Shown: in pieces, positions 37,543 to 46,870 of the stretch
Layout of the letters: the number at the start of each line of letters is the position of its first letter
Position numbering within the stretch: the stretch's first letter is position 1
Assembly: GCA_903869075.1 (NCBI GenBank)
Contig: CAIPXZ010000493.1
Location: 1 to 46,870, forward strand
Reading direction: 5' to 3'
DNA from: an uncultured Myxococcales bacterium
GTDB taxonomy: Bacteria > Myxococcota_A > UBA9042
DNA length: 46,870 nt
Notes under the pieces: model-generated
Database searches by the model: none
Told to the model about the DNA's origin: nothing
The model's input: the letters and a program-made list of their open reading frames with translations, nothing else
Position numbers and translations under genes: made by a program

Positions 37543-40500
37543 CTACTTCCAAGCCAGCCGCGAGGCGCCGTCCGCGCGCGCCTGCGTGCCGCGCAACTCT
37601 GCGTCATCACAGCGCTCCACGAACAGCTGCGCCGCCGCGTCCTCCGGGCACGCCGCCAGCGCCTCCACAAACGCCACCCGCGCCTGCCCCGGTTTGCTCG
37701 CCTGCCACAGCGCCACACCGCGCTCGTACGCCGCGCGTCCCGCCAGCTTCGCCGCCCGCCGTGGCGCCAGCTCGGCGTCCAGCACTTCGTAGACGTCCGT
37801 CGGCTGCTCCTTACCGCTGGCGATCACCCGATCCAGCAGCCGCAGCTGGTAGCGCTCCGGGTCCGCCAGCCGCGCCCGCGTGTCGCCGCCGATGAGCAAG
37901 GACGCCACATAGCCCTTGCACAAGCCCTCGACGCGCGACGCGACGTTGACCGGATCGCCGATCAAGCCGCGGTCCATGCGCGAGCGCCCGCCGATGACGC
38001 CGACCATGACCGTGCCGGTGTTGATGCCGATGCCGATGCTGATCGCTGGCTCGCCCAGCTTCGCGCGCTCGGCGTTGAACCGCGCCAGCGCCTCGAACAT
38101 CGCCAGCGCCGCTTGCACCGCGTCATCCGCCTTGCCCGGAAACACCGCCATGATGCCGTCGCCGAGGAACTGCTCGACGTGGCCGTTGTGGCCGTAAATC
38201 GCCGGCTCCATCTCGGCCAGATAGCGATTCACAAAGGCGAAAGTCTCCTTCGGCCCGAGGCGCTCGGCCAGCGTCGTAAAGCCGCGGATGTCGGCAAACA
38301 GCGCCGTGACTTCCTGCTGGACGTGGTCGCCGATCGACACTTGCAGGATGCTCGTCTTGCCCAGCTGGGTCATGAATTCCTGCGGCACAAAGCGCTGAAA
38401 CGCGCGCGTCAGCCGCTTTTGGTCGTCCAGCGCCGCGTCCAGGCTCTCGTACAGCAGCGCGTTGACAAGCGACACCGCCGCCTGCGCCGCCAGCGTCTCC
38501 ACCATCTCCAGCCGCTGGGCGTTGAAAGCGCCGCTCATGTCGCGGTGCTCCAGGGTGACGATGCCGACGAGCTCACCGGCGCGGATCAGCGGCGCGGCGA
38601 GGATCGCGTTGCCGCCGCGCTGATCAAAAGCATCGGCAAAACGCGGATCTGCCCACGCCGCGTCCAGCAGCAGCGACTCGCGGGTGTGCTGCACGTACGC
38701 CGCCACCGCCGCCATCGGTCCCAGCACTTCGTCCGGATCCGCGCCCTCGCGCGACGCGCCCGTGGTCAACGACCGCACATCCAGCCCGCCGGGAATGTCC
38801 CGCGCCAGCGCCGCCACCGTCGCCTTGCCGTCGCGCACAAGCAGCAGCGCGCCGCTTGTCGCGCCAGCGGTCTGCACCGCCAGCCGCAGCAGCTGCGTCA
38901 GCAGCGCATCCACGCGAATTTCCGCGGATAGTGCGCGCGCCGCCCGGGCGATCGCCGTCGCGTCCAGCCCCGAGTTCTCCGGCGACGCCAGCGCCGGACC
39001 GCTCGCGTACGGCGCCACAAGCCCGCCCGAACCCTGCGCGCGCTGCAGCAGCGCCTCAAAGCGATCGATGCCCGCCACGACGCCGTGCTGCATCCACGTC
39101 GCCCGCGCTTCCAACAAGTACGCCGCCGCCGCGCGCCCGTGCCCCCGTCGCAGCCACGCCTGGCCAGCCAGTTCCAACGCCAGCGCCTTGTCAAAGCCAT
39201 GGTCCGCCAGCGTCGCCGACGCCACCGCCGCCTCGTAGGCCCGCGTCGCGTCCTCCCACCGACCCTGCACGTCCGCCAGTTCCGCCTTCAGCAGATCGCG
39301 CAACTGCACGTAATTCAGCGGCTTTGGCTTGAGCCACGGCCCCAGCTTGCGCAGGCCCTTTCGCGCGCGGGCGATGTGCTGGCGCGCCGCACTTGCGTGG
39401 CCCGCGTCCTGCGCTTCCCGCGCCGCCGCCACCCGCGCCAGCGCCGTGTAGCCGATGATGTTCGGCACCAGGTACGTGCCCGGCACGATGTTCACGCCTT
39501 TTTCCGCCCGCTCCAGGCTCGGCAGCGCGCGCGCCGCGTGGCCTTGCCAGATGGCCAGCTGACCCTCCAGCAGCGCAAAGCTCACGCCCGCCGACGCGTC
39601 GCCGTGGTGCGCCGCCAGCCACGCCTCCTTGACGATGAAATCGCCAGACAACACAAGCGGATCCGCGACCTTGGCGCGCAGGCAATCGACAGCCTGCAGG
39701 TAGAGCTGCGCCCACGGCACGCTGCGATCCTGGCGGAACCGCAGGCAGATGGCGAGCGCGTTCTGGCCATGGCGCTCCAGCTCATCCACGTCCACGCCGC
39801 AACACATCGCTTGCGCGACGGCGTTGGTGGCGGCCTGCGCGGCGTGCGTGACGTCGCCGCCCTCGATGCCGTGGCGCACCACGCGCGCCCACACCGCGAT
39901 GCCGGCGCGCAGCGGCTGCAGGCGGTTTTGCACAAAGCCCCAGTCCATCAGCTCGACTTTCGCCAGCATTTCCGTGGCGCCCAGCCGGGCGATGATGTCG
40001 TACGCGGCGGTCTCATACATCGCGCCGCCGGTGACGTCGCCAAAGAACGCCGCGCGCAAAAAGCCATAGCTGGCAATGGCATACGCGCCCTGCGGCGTCA
40101 CGCCGTGGCGCATCGTGCGGTCCACGAGCTCCAGCGTCCACAGCGCCGTCAGGTTCGGCTCAATCAGGTACGCGGAGATCAGCGCCTCGGCCATCAGGCT
40201 CAGCGACGCCGCCACGCGCGGATCGTCGCACACCGGCAGCTGGCCCAGGGACGCGCGCGTCGTGCCGCGCATCCGCCATAGCACCCGGCCAAACGCCAGC
40301 GCCAGATGGTGCGGCTTGGGCCGCAGCGGCGTGCCCAGCCCGAGGCGATCCAGCGCCGCGCCGCTCAGGTTCACCGCCGCCTCGTGCTCGCCGCGCGCCA
40401 GATGACCGCGAATGCGCACGCGATCCAGCGCTACCTGCGCCAGCACGTCCGGCGCCGATCGCTCGCCAGCGTGGACGTGCTCCTCGGCGCGCGTGCGGTC

Positions 40501-42930
40501 GCCCAGCACCATCGCCGACTCCGCCGCCGCCAGGTGCAGGGCAAAAGCGCTCGCGTGGTCGGGAGCGTCCGCCGGCAGCAGGGTCAGCGCCGCCTCGGCA
40601 AACGCCACCGCCGGGGCAAAAGCGCCGAGATCGCGGGCGCGCTGCGCCGCCAGCGCGAGCCGTTCCAGCGCCGCAGCGCGATCGCCCGGGGACGCCAGCT
40701 GCGCCATGCCACGCATCACCTGTTCCGCGACCAAAAACAGCCCGCGATCATGGCGTTGCGCCACGCCGGCTTGCCACATCCGCTCGGCGAACTGCAGGTG
40801 CAGCGCCACGCGCGCGTGCTCGTCCAGGCGCGCGCGCGCCGCCTCCTGCACGCGATCGTGCGGAAACCGCACCACCAGCCGCTGCGGCGTATCGGTGGCG
40901 TGCGTCGGCTCCGCGCCCAGACCGCTGGCGATTTCCCAGCCTTCGCCCACCGGCACCAGCAACCCGCGCGCGCCCAGCACCGCCGCATCGCGCACAACCG
41001 TCTGCATCGGCCGGCCAAGCGCCAGCGCCAGCAGCTCAACGTCCACTTCCTGGCCAACACACGCGACTTCTGCCAGCAGCGCCGCCGACTCCGGCGGCAG
41101 CGCGTCCAGGCGCCGCGCCAGCAGCTCGGCCACGCCATTGCGCGCGGCAATGCGGTCCACGCTGTCCAGCGACCACTGCCAATGCCCCAGCGTCTGGTCA
41201 AACGCCAGCGCGCCGGCGTCGGCCAGCGCCACCAGGATCTCGCGGATCTCAAACGGATTGCCTTCCGCCCGCTCCGTCACCCGCTCCGCCAGCGGCCGCA
41301 CCGCCGCCTCGGGCATGCCCAGCGCGTCGGACAGCATCCGCGCCACGTGCGGCGCCTGCAGCGGCGCCAGCGTAATCCGCACAGGACCGCCGTCGCTCAG
41401 GCGGTGGAACAACGTCTGCAGCGGGTGGCCGGCGGTCACCTCATTGTCGCGCCAGGCGAGGATCAGCACCGGGTTGCGCGGATCCGGCAAGCGCAAGATG
41501 GTCTCGACGAGGTCCAACGTCGCGGCGTCGGCCCACTGCATGTCGTCCAGGAACAGCAGCAGCGGTGTCTGCGGCTGGTGCAGCGCCCGTAAAAGATCTG
41601 TGATCGCCGCGAGTTGTCGCGCCTGGGTGTCCGTCGCCGACAGCGTCCGCCCGGCTTGCGCCGCCGGCAGCAGCGCCTGCAGGGCCGGCAGCAGGCCGAC
41701 GACAACGTCCGCCGCCGCGCCGATCGCCGCCGTCAGCCGCAGCCGCCACGCCTCAACTTGATTGGCACGCAGCGTCAGGATCTGGCGGATGACCGGGTCC
41801 AGCGCCACGCGCAAGGGGCCGAACGCCTCGGTGTGCAGCAGCTGGTCGAACTTGCCGGCGGCGAAAAGCCCGCCCCGCGCGCGCGCCCATGGCCGCAGCT
41901 CGTGGACAACCGAGGTCTTGCCAATGCCCGCCGGGCCCAGCACCGCCACCGACGACGCCTGCCCGGCGCAAACGCGCTCCACCGCGGCAGCCAGCGCCTG
42001 GACGTCCTCGGCGCGACCGTACAGCACCGACGGCAGCAGCAGCTGGCCCGAGCGATCGGCGCGGCCGATCTCGAACGGCGCGATCGTCCCCGTGCGCTGC
42101 AGCGCCAGCTGGCAGGTTCGCAGGTCGTTGGCCAAGCCCGCCGCCGACTGGTAGCGATCGTCCGGCGACTTTTCAAGCAGGCGATCGACGATGCGGCACA
42201 CGACCTCCGGCACGTCCCGGCGCAGCGACAGCAGCGGCGGCGGCGGATGCGCGACGATGGCGTGCACGAGCGCCAGCGGGTCCTCGTCCCACAGCGGCAT
42301 CCGCCCAGCCAGCAGCCGGTAGAGGATCGCGCCCACCGCGTACAGGTCCGCGCGCGCGTCTGCCAGCCGGTCCAGCCGCCCGGTCTGCTCCGGCGCCAGC
42401 CACGCCACCGCCGCCGGCGTGCGCCCCGTCGGCTCCGGCGACGGCAGCGGCAGCTGGGACGCGCGGGAAAAATCGATCAGCGTCACAGCGCCCGTGCCGC
42501 GCGTCAAAAGCACATGGTCCGGGTTCAGGTCCAGGTGGAAGACGCCGCGCGCATGGACGCCCTGCAGCGCCGTCACCAGGTTGACCGCCAGATCGAGAAT
42601 CCGCTGCAGGTGCCATGGCGCGCCCGCCAGCTGCGCCGCGATGCTCTCGCCGTCGATCGCATCCACGACCAGCGCCAGGCCAAGCTGCGTCGTCGCCAGC
42701 GCGTGCAGCGTCACCACACCGGGGCCTTGCGCCCGCCGCAGCATCGCGTGCTCGTGGCGCAGCCGGTGCCGCGCGCGGTTCTCGGTCACGCCCGGCGCGA
42801 TCGCTTTTTGCACGACGCGCTGCTGCGTGCCGGTCCAGGTCGCGAACTGCAGCAGGCTGCGCTGGCCGCGATGCAGCACGGCGCCGAGTTGCAGCGCGTC
42901 AGCGTCCAGGTTTTGGGTCTGCTCGGTCAT
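37543..42930 (-). CDS. Kinase-AAA-TPR-GAF-nucleotide cyclase signalling protein
   Basis: The 1795-residue protein has, in order: a protein kinase domain (about 15-275), a predicted STAND/AAA-type ATPase with Walker A GPAGIGKTS (332-340) and Walker B LLLFLDDMQWAD, a long helical TPR-like region (about 600-1300), a GAF domain (about 1335-1500), and a class III cyclase domain (about 1540-1740). The kinase has HLDLNPDH for HRDxKxxN and DFS (153-155) for DFG, so activity is doubtful. The cyclase keeps both metal Asp (1547 and 1591) and NVASR, but the purine-selecting Lys is Gln in VEQFLGDG and the partner position is Gly, so ATP or GTP use is open. The start ATG directly follows the lipoxygenase stop (TGAATG). 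Confidence 0.9.
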   Translation of the reverse strand: MTEQTQNLDADALQLGAVLHRGQRSLLQFATWTGTQQRVVQKAIAPGVTENRARHRLRHEHAMLRRAQGPGVVTLHALATTQLGLALVVDAIDGESIAAQLAGAPWHLQRILDLAVNLVTALQGVHARGVFHLDLNPDHVLLTRGTGAVTLIDFSRASQLPLPSPEPTGRTPAAVAWLAPEQTGRLDRLADARADLYAVGAILYRLLAGRMPLWDEDPLALVHAIVAHPPPPLLSLRRDVPEVVCRIVDRLLEKSPDDRYQSAAGLANDLRTCQLALQRTGTIAPFEIGRADRSGQLLLPSVLYGRAEDVQALAAAVERVCAGQASSVAVLGPAGIGKTSVVHELRPWARARGGLFAAGKFDQLLHTEAFGPLRVALDPVIRQILTLRANQVEAWRLRLTAAIGAAADVVVGLLPALQALLPAAQAGRTLSATDTQARQLAAITDLLRALHQPQTPLLLFLDDMQWADAATLDLVETILRLPDPRNPVLILAWRDNEVTAGHPLQTLFHRLSDGGPVRITLAPLQAPHVARMLSDALGMPEAAVRPLAERVTERAEGNPFEIREILVALADAGALAFDQTLGHWQWSLDSVDRIAARNGVAELLARRLDALPPESAALLAEVACVGQEVDVELLALALGRPMQTVVRDAAVLGARGLLVPVGEGWEIASGLGAEPTHATDTPQRLVVRFPHDRVQEAARARLDEHARVALHLQFAERMWQAGVAQRHDRGLFLVAEQVMRGMAQLASPGDRAAALERLALAAQRARDLGAFAPAVAFAEAALTLLPADAPDHASAFALHLAAAESAMVLGDRTRAEEHVHAGERSAPDVLAQVALDRVRIRGHLARGEHEAAVNLSGAALDRLGLGTPLRPKPHHLALAFGRVLWRMRGTTRASLGQLPVCDDPRVAASLSLMAEALISAYLIEPNLTALWTLELVDRTMRHGVTPQGAYAIASYGFLRAAFFGDVTGGAMYETAAYDIIARLGATEMLAKVELMDWGFVQNRLQPLRAGIAVWARVVRHGIEGGDVTHAAQAATNAVAQAMCCGVDVDELERHGQNALAICLRFRQDRSVPWAQLYLQAVDCLRAKVADPLVLSGDFIVKEAWLAAHHGDASAGVSFALLEGQLAIWQGHAARALPSLERAEKGVNIVPGTYLVPNIIGYTALARVAAAREAQDAGHASAARQHIARARKGLRKLGPWLKPKPLNYVQLRDLLKAELADVQGRWEDATRAYEAAVASATLADHGFDKALALELAGQAWLRRGHGRAAAAYLLEARATWMQHGVVAGIDRFEALLQRAQGSGGLVAPYASGPALASPENSGLDATAIARAARALSAEIRVDALLTQLLRLAVQTAGATSGALLLVRDGKATVAALARDIPGGLDVRSLTTGASREGADPDEVLGPMAAVAAYVQHTRESLLLDAAWADPRFADAFDQRGGNAILAAPLIRAGELVGIVTLEHRDMSGAFNAQRLEMVETLAAQAAVSLVNALLYESLDAALDDQKRLTRAFQRFVPQEFMTQLGKTSILQVSIGDHVQQEVTALFADIRGFTTLAERLGPKETFAFVNRYLAEMEPAIYGHNGHVEQFLGDGIMAVFPGKADDAVQAALAMFEALARFNAERAKLGEPAISIGIGINTGTVMVGVIGGRSRMDRGLIGDPVNVASRVEGLCKGYVASLLIGGDTRARLADPERYQLRLLDRVIASGKEQPTDVYEVLDAELAPRRAAKLAGRAAYERGVALWQASKPGQARVAFVEALAACPEDAAAQLFVERCDDAELRGTQARADGASRLAWK

Positions 42931-44676
42931 TCAGATGTCGGTCGAGCGCGAGATATTGCGCGGATCCAGATAGCGATACGGTACAGCCCGCGACAGGTTT
43001 CGCAAGGCGATAACGTCGGACAAATCGTGCATGCGCCGGCGAAAGGCTGCGACCGACTCCGCCGCCTCGCGGCACACGCTGGCCTGAAACGCGCCGCAGT
43101 CGCCGGTGTGCAGCAGCGAGCGCACCGTCGGCATGGATAGCACCCACACCATGCCCATTTGCGCCATCGCCGGCGTCTTCAGCGGCAAGCCGGCAAAGTA
43201 CGCGTCCTCGTCGATGTGCAACGCGTCCGTGAGGTCCGACGCGAAAGTGCCGGGCGTGTTGGGGATGTAGCCGTACGCGTCGTACTGGCCGTTGTTGACG
43301 GCGGCATGTTGCGGCGCGGCGCGGAAGATGAAGTCGGTCAGGACCTCAAACAGCTGCTCCGGCGAGCCGATGCGCGCGGGCAGGGCGCCGGCAACGCCGT
43401 CGATGCCCGCGTCCGGGGTGTCCGCCAGCGTCGGGCAGCTCTTCAGCCCGCCCGCCGTCGCCACTTCCTCCAGCCACGCCCGCAGCTCGTAGTCGGCGAT
43501 GACGTCGGCGCTCGTGCGGTACCACGGCGCCATCACGCCGCGGACGTAGCGGTGCAGGCCTTCGCGCACGCGCTGGGCGTCCTCGCGGTATGGATAGTCG
43601 GGAATATCCAGCATTCCACGCACTTCCAGATCGCGCTGCAGCGTGCGCTCGCGCAGATCAAACGTCCGCGCCGTCGCCCGGGCCGCTGCCATGGCGCCTA
43701 CCACGCCGCCGGGCATGCTCAAATCGATCGGCCCGCCCACCTTGAGCAGGTTGCCGCGCGCCATGCTGTCGATCGCCAGGTTGTACTCGTAGTGCTGCTC
43801 CAGCAGCTGCCGCACCGGGTGCTCCGGATACAGGTTGCGGTACATGCACAGCGCGATCGTCTCGTTGACGAGGTGCGTCTCGAACAGGTGGTAGTACGCC
43901 TCGTGCAGCTGCGCGTCCGCCGACTGCGCGTGGCCGCGGGCCAGCAGCCAGCGCCCCTGATCGCCGTTCGGCGTGGCGATCGGCGCCGTACCATCGGGCT
44001 TGCGCACCGCGATCGCCAGCGGCCGCAGCCGGTCCAGCGCGTCCAGGCCGTACAGCGCCAGCGGCGCGTACATCAGCGACCGGCCATCATTCTTCTTGTA
44101 CTGCTGCACGTCTGGATCCAGCAACACACCGTAATCCGTCAGGAATGCCCGCTTGTTGCGCACCAGATCGGCAAAATCCGGCGTGCGCGGTCCCCAGGCT
44201 TGCAGCGCCGAATTGGCGGCTTCCACAAGCGCTTGCGCCGGCATGTCGTCGCAGCGCCGCAGCGCCATCGGGTTGACGCCCGACAGCCGCTGGCGCGCGA
44301 ACTCCATGTCGTCGCGCCAGCGCACGATGGCGTCCTTGGGCCCGGCCATCAGCCGGTACAGCCGCTCGTAGCGCGTCGCCGCCGGGCCGGCAAACAGCGC
44401 CAACCGGGAGTTGATCTGCATCAGCAGCTTGCCGGTGGCAAAGCTCATCATCCGCGGCACGGGAAACGCCACTTCCTTGGGCAGCGTCGCGACGTACCCG
44501 GGCAGCGGCGGCAAGCCGTCTGTGGCCACCGCCGTCTCCAGCACAAAGCGCTCGCGTGTCGCGGCGATCGTCGCCCGCCGCGCCCGTTTGCGATCGACGG
44601 TGCAGTCCTGCGGCAGTTGGTAGAAGCTCGGCGCCACGGTCGTCGGCACGTGGTCAATCGTCTGCGGCTCCGTCAT
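42931..44676 (-). CDS. Lipoxygenase
   Basis: The 581-residue non-heme iron enzyme should insert O2 into polyunsaturated fatty acids to give hydroperoxides. Iron ligands fit the family: His263 and His268 in YYHLFETH (HxxxxH), His457 in PQHAAVNNGQY with Asn461, and the C-terminal Ile581. Further marks are FARQRLSGVNPMALRR (127-141) and YGYIPNTPG. The N-terminal PLAT lipid-binding domain is absent, giving a minimal catalytic form. Regio- and stereospecificity cannot be read reliably. ATG 44676 overlaps the stop of the catalase-like gene (TGATG), and GGGGGAG lies just before it. The kinase-cyclase follows with no gap. Confidence 0.95.
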   Translation of the reverse strand: MTEPQTIDHVPTTVAPSFYQLPQDCTVDRKRARRATIAATRERFVLETAVATDGLPPLPGYVATLPKEVAFPVPRMMSFATGKLLMQINSRLALFAGPAATRYERLYRLMAGPKDAIVRWRDDMEFARQRLSGVNPMALRRCDDMPAQALVEAANSALQAWGPRTPDFADLVRNKRAFLTDYGVLLDPDVQQYKKNDGRSLMYAPLALYGLDALDRLRPLAIAVRKPDGTAPIATPNGDQGRWLLARGHAQSADAQLHEAYYHLFETHLVNETIALCMYRNLYPEHPVRQLLEQHYEYNLAIDSMARGNLLKVGGPIDLSMPGGVVGAMAAARATARTFDLRERTLQRDLEVRGMLDIPDYPYREDAQRVREGLHRYVRGVMAPWYRTSADVIADYELRAWLEEVATAGGLKSCPTLADTPDAGIDGVAGALPARIGSPEQLFEVLTDFIFRAAPQHAAVNNGQYDAYGYIPNTPGTFASDLTDALHIDEDAYFAGLPLKTPAMAQMGMVWVLSMPTVRSLLHTGDCGAFQASVCREAAESVAAFRRRMHDLSDVIALRNLSRAVPYRYLDPRNISRSTDI

Positions 44677-46646
44677 CACTCCCCCTTCACGTTGGCGCCG
44701 AACGTCGGCAGGCCAAACTGGTGATACATCCACTTGCGCAGCCGCGCGGTGCGGGCGATGACGCGGCGTTCGCTGTCGGCGGGCGAGCGCGGATCCAGGG
44801 CATCGCGCGCCACCGGCACACCCAGACTCGGCGGATGTACAGACGGGTCAAAGTACAGCTGCTCGGCGTCGCCGTCGGACAGCGCTGTCGTGAGCACGAC
44901 GGTGCCCAGCGTGCGCCACGGGTGCGTCTGGTGCGGCCAGTCGAACATGCCGTTATACCAGGACAAATCGTCGCCGACGCCGGGCAGGTGGAACTGCGCC
45001 TGCAGCAGCATCTTGATCGGCACGTGGTCCAGCCGCTGCTTGAGTTCGCGCCGCAGATAGTCGCGCGCGCGCGTGTCGCCCGGCCGCCGCGTGCGGTCCC
45101 AGGTCACCAGATCGTCGGCCAACGTCGGCACGCCGGACTCCGGCACGTCCGGATCCGCCGGCAGCAGCCGGTAGCGCACAAGCCAGCGCTCGTCGTCGCT
45201 TGTCAGCCAATAGCGCGTCGACTGCGAGTAGAAATGCAGCAGCGCGTAGGATTCCGGCGCCAGCCGCAGCCCGGAAATGCCGCCCTCGCGGCCCTTGCGG
45301 TTCTTTTTGACAAGCGCGACGACGACCGCGTGCGGCAGGAACTTGGAGAACACGAGCAGCGCGAATTCGACGACGTTCTCGATCGGCCCGCAGGAGCCCG
45401 TGTTCATCAAAATGTCGACGAACGGCTCGTTCAGCGGGGCGATGCGCAGCGCGGCGCCGCGGACGTCCATGCCGGCGTCGTCGCCAAAGGTGACGTTGGC
45501 AAAGCGCATTGTCGTCTCGACGCGGTCGGTGCGCTCGGTGCTGGGAAAGAACCACGGATGCTCGGGGATGCCGTCCGGCGTGCGCTCGCCCGTCACCGGA
45601 TCGAGGGTGCTCGGCGCTGGCTCCCAGTGGCCCCTGGCCGCCACGCCCAGGCCGTGGGTGCCGCGGCGCTTGCCCAGCAGCACGCGAAACGCGATGATCG
45701 GCCCGGCAACGAGGTCCATGAACGTCCAGCCGTCCGGCGGATCGCCGACCTCCTCCGGCGGGGACGACCCGGCATTGCGCGCTGCGGCGGCGTTGGCCAC
45801 CAGAAAGACCGTCGGCAGCAGCGCCGTCACGACCATGACCCACTGGGCAAAAATCGCCGCATTGGACGCCACGAGCGCCGCCAGCGCGATCGCCGCGAAC
45901 GTCAGCAGGTGCACCATGCGAAAGCCGCGCCACTCGGACACGCGCGTCTCCGGGATGCCGGCGATCGCCAGCACGCCCAGGCCGAGCCACAGCGCGCCGA
46001 TGCGCTGCGTCCAGAGGATCGCCCAGTTCAGCAGCTCGCGCTTCGCCAGCACGCCGGCGCTGTCCTGGAAGCGCTCCGGCCGCGCCAGCGCCCTCCAGAC
46101 CACGTCCTCGCCCCAGTAAATCAGCACGCCGCCCATCACCACGAGCACCACAAGCTGCAGCGTCCAAATCAGCCACATCGACTGCGGTTTCGTGTCGGCG
46201 CGCCCGGACAGCTGGCGCTCGGTCGGCTCCGCCGTCGGCCAGATCCACGCAAGCAGGTTGAAGCCGCCCAGCGCGGTCGCGAGGGTCACGACCACCGAAT
46301 CGCGCACCGTCTGGCTGACGAGCACGCGATCCATACCGCGAAAATCCGCGATCTGATTGCGAAAATGATGCGCTGCGGCAAAAGCGCCAAAGCCGATCGC
46401 CAGCGCCCGGGCGATGCGTTTGCGCGCCGCCGGATCCTCGCGCATCGCCGCGTACATCGCCGCCACCATCAGACCGAGCATCGGCCCGGCGCTGTATTGC
46501 AGCGTCGAGGTCAGCGCGCTCAGCCCAGAAGTAGCGGTATTTTGCGGCGCCTGGATCCAGAACTCGGGAAACAGCAGCACCAGCACGGCCCAAGCGCCCA
46601 GCAGCGGCACATGGAGCAACCAGACGACGGTGAAGAAGCGTTGCAT
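44676..46646 (-). CDS. Membrane-anchored catalase-like protein
   Basis: The 656-residue protein has seven or eight hydrophobic helices in residues 7-288 and a C-terminal catalase-related domain (about 320-640). The distal His331 sits in RGTHGLGVAARGHWE, followed by MRFANVTFGDD, DVRGAALRIAP, FVDILMNTG and HFYSQSTRYWLT, with VRYRLLPAD. These match the small catalase-like proteins related to coral allene oxide synthase. The usual proximal Tyr, late in the domain after PLG, is not evident (PSLGVPVARDALDPRS), so heme ligation is uncertain. ATG 46646 is chosen with AAGGA just upstream; a TTG at 46664 is possible. It is coupled to the lipoxygenase gene by TGATG. Confidence 0.82.
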   Translation of the reverse strand: MQRFFTVVWLLHVPLLGAWAVLVLLFPEFWIQAPQNTATSGLSALTSTLQYSAGPMLGLMVAAMYAAMREDPAARKRIARALAIGFGAFAAAHHFRNQIADFRGMDRVLVSQTVRDSVVVTLATALGGFNLLAWIWPTAEPTERQLSGRADTKPQSMWLIWTLQLVVLVVMGGVLIYWGEDVVWRALARPERFQDSAGVLAKRELLNWAILWTQRIGALWLGLGVLAIAGIPETRVSEWRGFRMVHLLTFAAIALAALVASNAAIFAQWVMVVTALLPTVFLVANAAAARNAGSSPPEEVGDPPDGWTFMDLVAGPIIAFRVLLGKRRGTHGLGVAARGHWEPAPSTLDPVTGERTPDGIPEHPWFFPSTERTDRVETTMRFANVTFGDDAGMDVRGAALRIAPLNEPFVDILMNTGSCGPIENVVEFALLVFSKFLPHAVVVALVKKNRKGREGGISGLRLAPESYALLHFYSQSTRYWLTSDDERWLVRYRLLPADPDVPESGVPTLADDLVTWDRTRRPGDTRARDYLRRELKQRLDHVPIKMLLQAQFHLPGVGDDLSWYNGMFDWPHQTHPWRTLGTVVLTTALSDGDAEQLYFDPSVHPPSLGVPVARDALDPRSPADSERRVIARTARLRKWMYHQFGLPTFGANVKGE

Positions 46647-46727: not shown

Positions 46728-46870
46728 CTAGGGCGGCGACGCCGGGGCTGGGTGCGCAGCTGCGGTCTGCACGCAGAGCGCAGCCATCAGCTCCCAGGCG
46801 ATCAACAACAGCGGAAATCCGTACGTGGCATGCAGCGCCGCGTCGGGCAGGCCGACCAGCACCGCGCCCA
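46728..46870 (-). CDS. C-terminal fragment of a membrane protein (cut by window edge)
   Basis: The last 47 residues of a minus-strand gene lie in the window. They contain a hydrophobic helix (about YGFPLLLIAWELMAALC) and a short Ala/Pro tail ending ASPP before the stop at 46728. The remainder is outside the window and the family cannot be named. It is 81 nt upstream of the catalase-like gene on the same strand and, since no promoter was seen between, may belong to the same operon. Confidence 0.5.
   Translation of the reverse strand, partial: GAVLVGLPDAALHATYGFPLLLIAWELMAALCVQTAAAHPAPASPP

Follow-up and report, generated by a model that had tools for sequence, protein, structure and literature searches.

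Can a bacterium make and sense oxidized lipid signals from a single group of adjacent genes? The question is raised by one end of contig CAIPXZ010000493.1 (assembly GCA_903869075.1) from an uncultured Myxococcales bacterium, whose entire 46,870 nucleotides constitute the window analyzed here. The original prediction, made from sequence alone, described a lipoxygenase with all expected iron ligands, whose start codon overlaps the stop codon of a gene for a membrane protein with a catalase-related domain anchored by 7–8 helices. In corals, a lipoxygenase makes a hydroperoxide that a fused catalase-related domain turns into an allene oxide, and the prediction took the bacterial pair to suggest synthesis of oxidized lipid signals from membrane polyunsaturated fatty acids. 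We find that the observation holds in full, whereas the interpretation is only partly supported: the two genes are real, the partner does belong with coral allene oxide synthase (AOS), and the pairing is conserved beyond this genome, a condition whose failure would have counted against the idea. However, the prediction overlooked a third, directly coupled signaling gene and the absence of the axial heme tyrosine from the coral-like partner, so allene oxide synthesis is not assured.

Three abutting genes on the minus strand

The locus comprises three genes with no spacer, referred to here as CAT (the catalase-related membrane protein), LOX (the lipoxygenase), and KIN (the signaling protein). 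Their coordinates, junctions, and principal residues are collected in Table 1.

Table 1. Features of the CAT–LOX–KIN locus, in window positions. G000 is the genome that contains the window and G004 a near relative with the same trio (a MAG of an uncultured Myxococcales bacterium).
Feature	Position	Strand	Description
Membrane-protein gene, 3' end	46728–46870	minus	Upstream of CAT, cut by the contig end; 261 aa in G004; continues on G000 contig C447 after a patatin-like gene
CAT	44676–46646	minus	Membrane-anchored coral-AOS-like protein, 656 aa
CAT N-terminal membrane part	45717–46646	minus	Residues 1–310, about 8 predicted helices
CAT catalase-fold domain	44679–45749	minus	Residues 300–656, coral-AOS-like
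CAT distal heme-side motif	45654–45665	minus	R328-G-T330-H331, equivalent of coral R64-A-T66-H67
CAT N415	45402–45404	minus	Equivalent of coral distal Asn137
CAT Ile630	44757–44759	minus	At the place of coral axial ligand Tyr353; ligand absent
CAT R637-K-W-M-Y641	44724–44738	minus	R637 aligns with coral R360; Y641 conserved in 6 of 7 KIN-linked CATs
CAT stop/LOX start	44674–44678	minus	TGATG, one shared base
LOX	42931–44676	minus	Lipoxygenase, 581 aa
LOX stop/KIN start	42928–42933	minus	TGAATG, start directly after stop
KIN	37543–42930	minus	Pkinase, AAA_16, (repeat region), GAF, adenylate/guanylate cyclase; 1795 aa

LOX is a lipoxygenase by Pfam (PF00305, E = 9.8e-45, 153.7 bits against a curated cut-off of 23.6), and only the lipoxygenase domain was detected. 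The five iron ligands, His263, His268, His457, Asn461, and the C-terminal Ile581, were verified in the sequence and are conserved across relatives. Neither LOX nor CAT matched any NCBIfam model.

The C-terminal half of CAT has no Pfam catalase match (PF00199) at E = 0.1, and we therefore used profile and fold searches instead. A single-sequence phmmer search matched coral AOS (1u5u) with E = 7.1e-29. A family profile built from 13 bacterial relatives matched 1u5u with E = 1.2e-109 and 369.6 bits, against E = 8.3e-11 and 44.6 bits for the best true catalase. Similarly, an AlphaFold model of the domain (pLDDT 80, pTM 0.82) had 1u5u as its best Foldseek hit, with a TM score of 0.79–0.81. Thus, in sequence and predicted fold, the domain is closest to coral AOS rather than to true catalase. 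The hydrophobic N-terminal ~300 residues were modeled as 8 helices, but with low confidence. Homologues of this part were found only in G000 and G004 among 379 genomes of the phylum (taken to be Myxococcota), and none that was meaningful among solved structures. The other KIN-linked CATs carry one hydrophobic helix in front of the distal His, so membrane anchoring is general among KIN-linked CATs and the 8-helix form, found in only two species, is a local elaboration.

The kinase domain of the window KIN has HLDLNPDH and DFS in place of the usual HxDxxxxN and DFG, unlike most relatives, and it may be a pseudokinase, while its cyclase motifs are intact. Upstream of CAT, G004 encodes a 755-aa protein with patatin-like motifs (GGGxR, GVSGGS, DGG) followed by a 261-aa membrane protein, with overlapping stop and start codons. 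Their homologues in the window's genome lie on contig C447, whose end overlaps the window end. The patatin-like protein has no Pfam or PDB match, and a lipase releasing fatty acid for LOX is an attractive guess, but no more. As for a substrate, fatty acid desaturase genes are present in the genome (7 matches), while no PfaA-type polyunsaturated fatty acid synthase scored above cut-off.

Residues at the heme pocket of CAT

Coral AOS binds heme through R64, R102, and R360, with T66, H67, and N137 on the distal side and Tyr353 as the proximal ligand (PMC5617202). In four alignment settings, all seven KIN-linked CATs keep R64, H67, R102, N137, and R360, together with Thr66 in the window copy and G004 and Ser in the other five. 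In contrast, the position of Tyr353 is occupied by Ile, Ile, Ser, Ala, Ser, Ser, and Ser; the five CATs other than those of the window and G004 have Ser or Ala there, or a gap in one setting. Six of six CATs not linked to KIN, and coral AOS, keep the tyrosine. The window copy also has Glu626 at the place of coral Arg349. The assignment of Ile630 is further supported by an ungapped profile alignment. We first considered that the RLFxY-like motif at residues 637–641 might be the catalase axial motif. This reading was set aside, although not finally, because the conserved D-x-x-S helix cap, the match to Arg360, and the four alignments place it 11 residues too far along a helix (621–644) that is continuous in the models. 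Tyr641 lies three turns away, and a relocated ligand is not excluded. Allene oxide chemistry, therefore, cannot be assumed.

Recurrence of the neighborhood and its possible meaning

A scan of a genome collection with LOX returned one near relative only, and we therefore surveyed the phylum by whole-genome searches. Among 379 genomes, 59 have LOX, and strong CAT matches occur in 14 genomes at 15 places. CAT, LOX, and KIN occur together, in several gene arrangements, in seven genomes (G000, G004, G001, G021, G327, G151, and G068). LOX lies within 6 kb of a KIN homologue in 17 of the 59 LOX-bearing genomes, against 0.47 expected for random placement, with a maximum of 4 in about 3000 placements, and chance neighborhood is rejected. 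Only seven KIN candidates were scored per genome, making KIN numbers a lower bound, some genomes are close kin (G151/G068 and G000/G004), and the placements did not model contig breaks, but we do not see how these limits could raise 0.5 to 17. In seven of the ten LOX–KIN loci without CAT (G158, G034, G118, G111, G329, G204, and G224), two or more LOX genes stand beside KIN, with the three His and the Asn kept in those that align over that stretch. Such tandem LOX genes beside a kinase/AAA/GAF/cyclase gene (loci L079, L080, L081, L083, L084, L085, and L086) are common in this phylum, so a two-enzyme-plus-KIN plan is recurrent.

Phylogenetic analysis by a quick method placed the KIN-linked LOX in separate groups: the window LOX groups with that of G273 and then near those of G327, G151, and G068, while those of G001 and G021 lie elsewhere. 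Similarly, linked KINs fall in several KIN clades mixed with unlinked ones. The coupling is therefore recurrent or anciently kept, which argues for function rather than inheritance of one block. The window CAT is a long branch, and a single clade of KIN-linked CATs is neither shown nor rejected (p = 0.18).

The reading we favor, which we regard as about as likely as not, is an oxylipin synthesis-and-signaling operon. In this view, LOX oxygenates a polyunsaturated fatty acid at the membrane to a hydroperoxide; the membrane-anchored CAT, a coral-AOS relative with unusual or missing axial heme ligation, captures the hydroperoxide and either converts it or binds it as a receptor; and KIN reads out the product or occupancy state, giving phosphorylation and/or a cyclic nucleotide, of which the cyclic nucleotide is the better bet given the altered kinase motifs. 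The analysis itself establishes the genes, their families, their abutting junctions, the recurrence of LOX with KIN and of all three genes across the phylum, and the residue pattern, whereas co-transcription, heme binding, the enzymatic activity of LOX and CAT, substrate, product, chemistry, and the step from lipid to KIN are inferred, the last from neighborhood only. No biochemical data support the model, neighborhood does not prove that KIN senses an oxylipin, and KIN-type proteins are a broad family with many members not near LOX. The missing tyrosine, the Glu at the Arg349 place, the seemingly degenerate kinase domain, and the lack of a PfaA match also weigh against it. A more specific form, possible but less likely than not, is an autocrine circuit in which LOX makes the lipid signal, a CAT that has lost its axial ligand serves as receptor or altered-chemistry enzyme, and KIN transduces the signal to a cyclic nucleotide, the same KIN type being coupled to tandem LOX pairs across the phylum.

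Two alternatives appear doubtful, and equally so. The locus may encode a plain two-enzyme pathway as in corals, in which CAT turns the hydroperoxide into an allene oxide, aldehydes, or an epoxide and KIN only regulates the operon. The strong profile match to coral AOS, the retained distal Thr-His and Asn, the CAT-before-LOX gene order, which matches the coral fusion and the G365 fusion, and the chemistry of cyanobacterial catalase-LOX fusions (PMC11719350) favor this reading, but it sits poorly with the loss of Tyr353 in all seven KIN-linked CATs and with a Phe at coral Leu150, as in coral hydroperoxide lyase (HPL) rather than AOS (PMC5617202). Conversely, CAT may no longer be an enzyme but a membrane receptor for the LOX product, or a heme-based sensor, that passes the signal to KIN, as suggested by loss of the ligand only in KIN-linked CATs while the pocket residues are kept, by the membrane anchor in all of them, and by the constant partnership with KIN. 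However, LOX–LOX–KIN loci work without CAT, the strong conservation of heme-contact residues could also mean retained catalysis, and relocation of the ligand to Tyr641, present in 6 of 7 members, is not excluded. A role in detoxification or predation, with LOX attacking foreign membranes or scavenging fatty acids, CAT removing hydroperoxides, and KIN acting as an ordinary regulator, is very unlikely. Attack on membrane lipids is discussed for bacterial LOX (PMC6612559), but this LOX has no strongly hydrophobic segment and hence no obvious export signal, true catalase function is unlikely given the coral-type Thr and missing Tyr, and the repeated coupling to KIN is left unexplained.

Bacterial lipoxygenases have been studied as enzymes, with little known of what their products do in the cell, and a statistically clear, recurrent genetic link to one type of signaling protein provides a direct, testable partner. 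A coral-AOS relative that keeps its heme pocket but not its axial tyrosine, only where the signaling partner is present, would be a natural test of what that ligand is for.

Known systems and other CAT-bearing loci

The closest known systems are the coral AOS-LOX and HPL-LOX fusion proteins (Plexaura homomalla, 1u5u/3dy5; Capnella imbricata), which have the two domains in the same order and give the best sequence and fold match. Here, by contrast, the two proteins are encoded by separate overlapping genes, no PLAT domain was found on LOX, CAT bears a membrane anchor and lacks the axial tyrosine (and, in this copy, the Arg349 equivalent), and KIN follows. Bacterial LOX with a catalase-related, hydroperoxide-converting partner is already known in Anabaena and Acaryochloris marina (PMC11719350). 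Judged from published accounts rather than from sequence comparison, those are fusions, and no membrane domain or KIN partner was found described for them. In searches of plasmids, CAT gave only a weak true-catalase hit, while LOX gave Nostoc and Acaryochloris LOX loci with no catalase or KIN neighbor annotated. The Mycobacterium avium 33-kDa catalase-related protein (3e4w) shares a small catalase fold but is much more distant (E = 3.4e-16 with the family profile).

Among myxobacteria, the tandem lipoxygenases MXAN_1744 and MXAN_1745 are active on arachidonic acid (PMC5760719), and a LOX of M. fulvus has been described (PMC6612559). The LOX–LOX–KIN loci found here resemble the tandem arrangement, in which the second enzyme is a LOX and not CAT, but we found no kinase or cyclase partner mentioned near the LOX genes in these papers. 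Likewise, literature searches, which covered open-access but not subscription papers, found none joining lipoxygenase with such a partner. The unfused membrane form, the signaling partner, and the missing tyrosine appear new.

CAT occurs in other settings within the phylum. It sits beside LOX twice in G232 and once in G297, where the weak LOX homologue (L063:6291–7820) aligns with Glu and Asp at two iron-ligand positions and may be inactive or misaligned. In G365, a myxobacterial relative, CAT is fused to a divergent LOX part in a 774-aa protein with the coral domain order (L065:5750–8074). G079 encodes an 813-aa CAT protein with Tyr353 kept and an unidentified C-terminal part of ~490 aa (L062:5585–8026), and no LOX was found in that genome. 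Lastly, a coral-AOS-like domain sits inside very large proteins with an AMP-binding domain in G105 (L066:1944–7394) and G226 (L067); the G105 protein also has an amine oxidase, a carrier domain, and an acyltransferase, suggesting a lipid-building megaenzyme.
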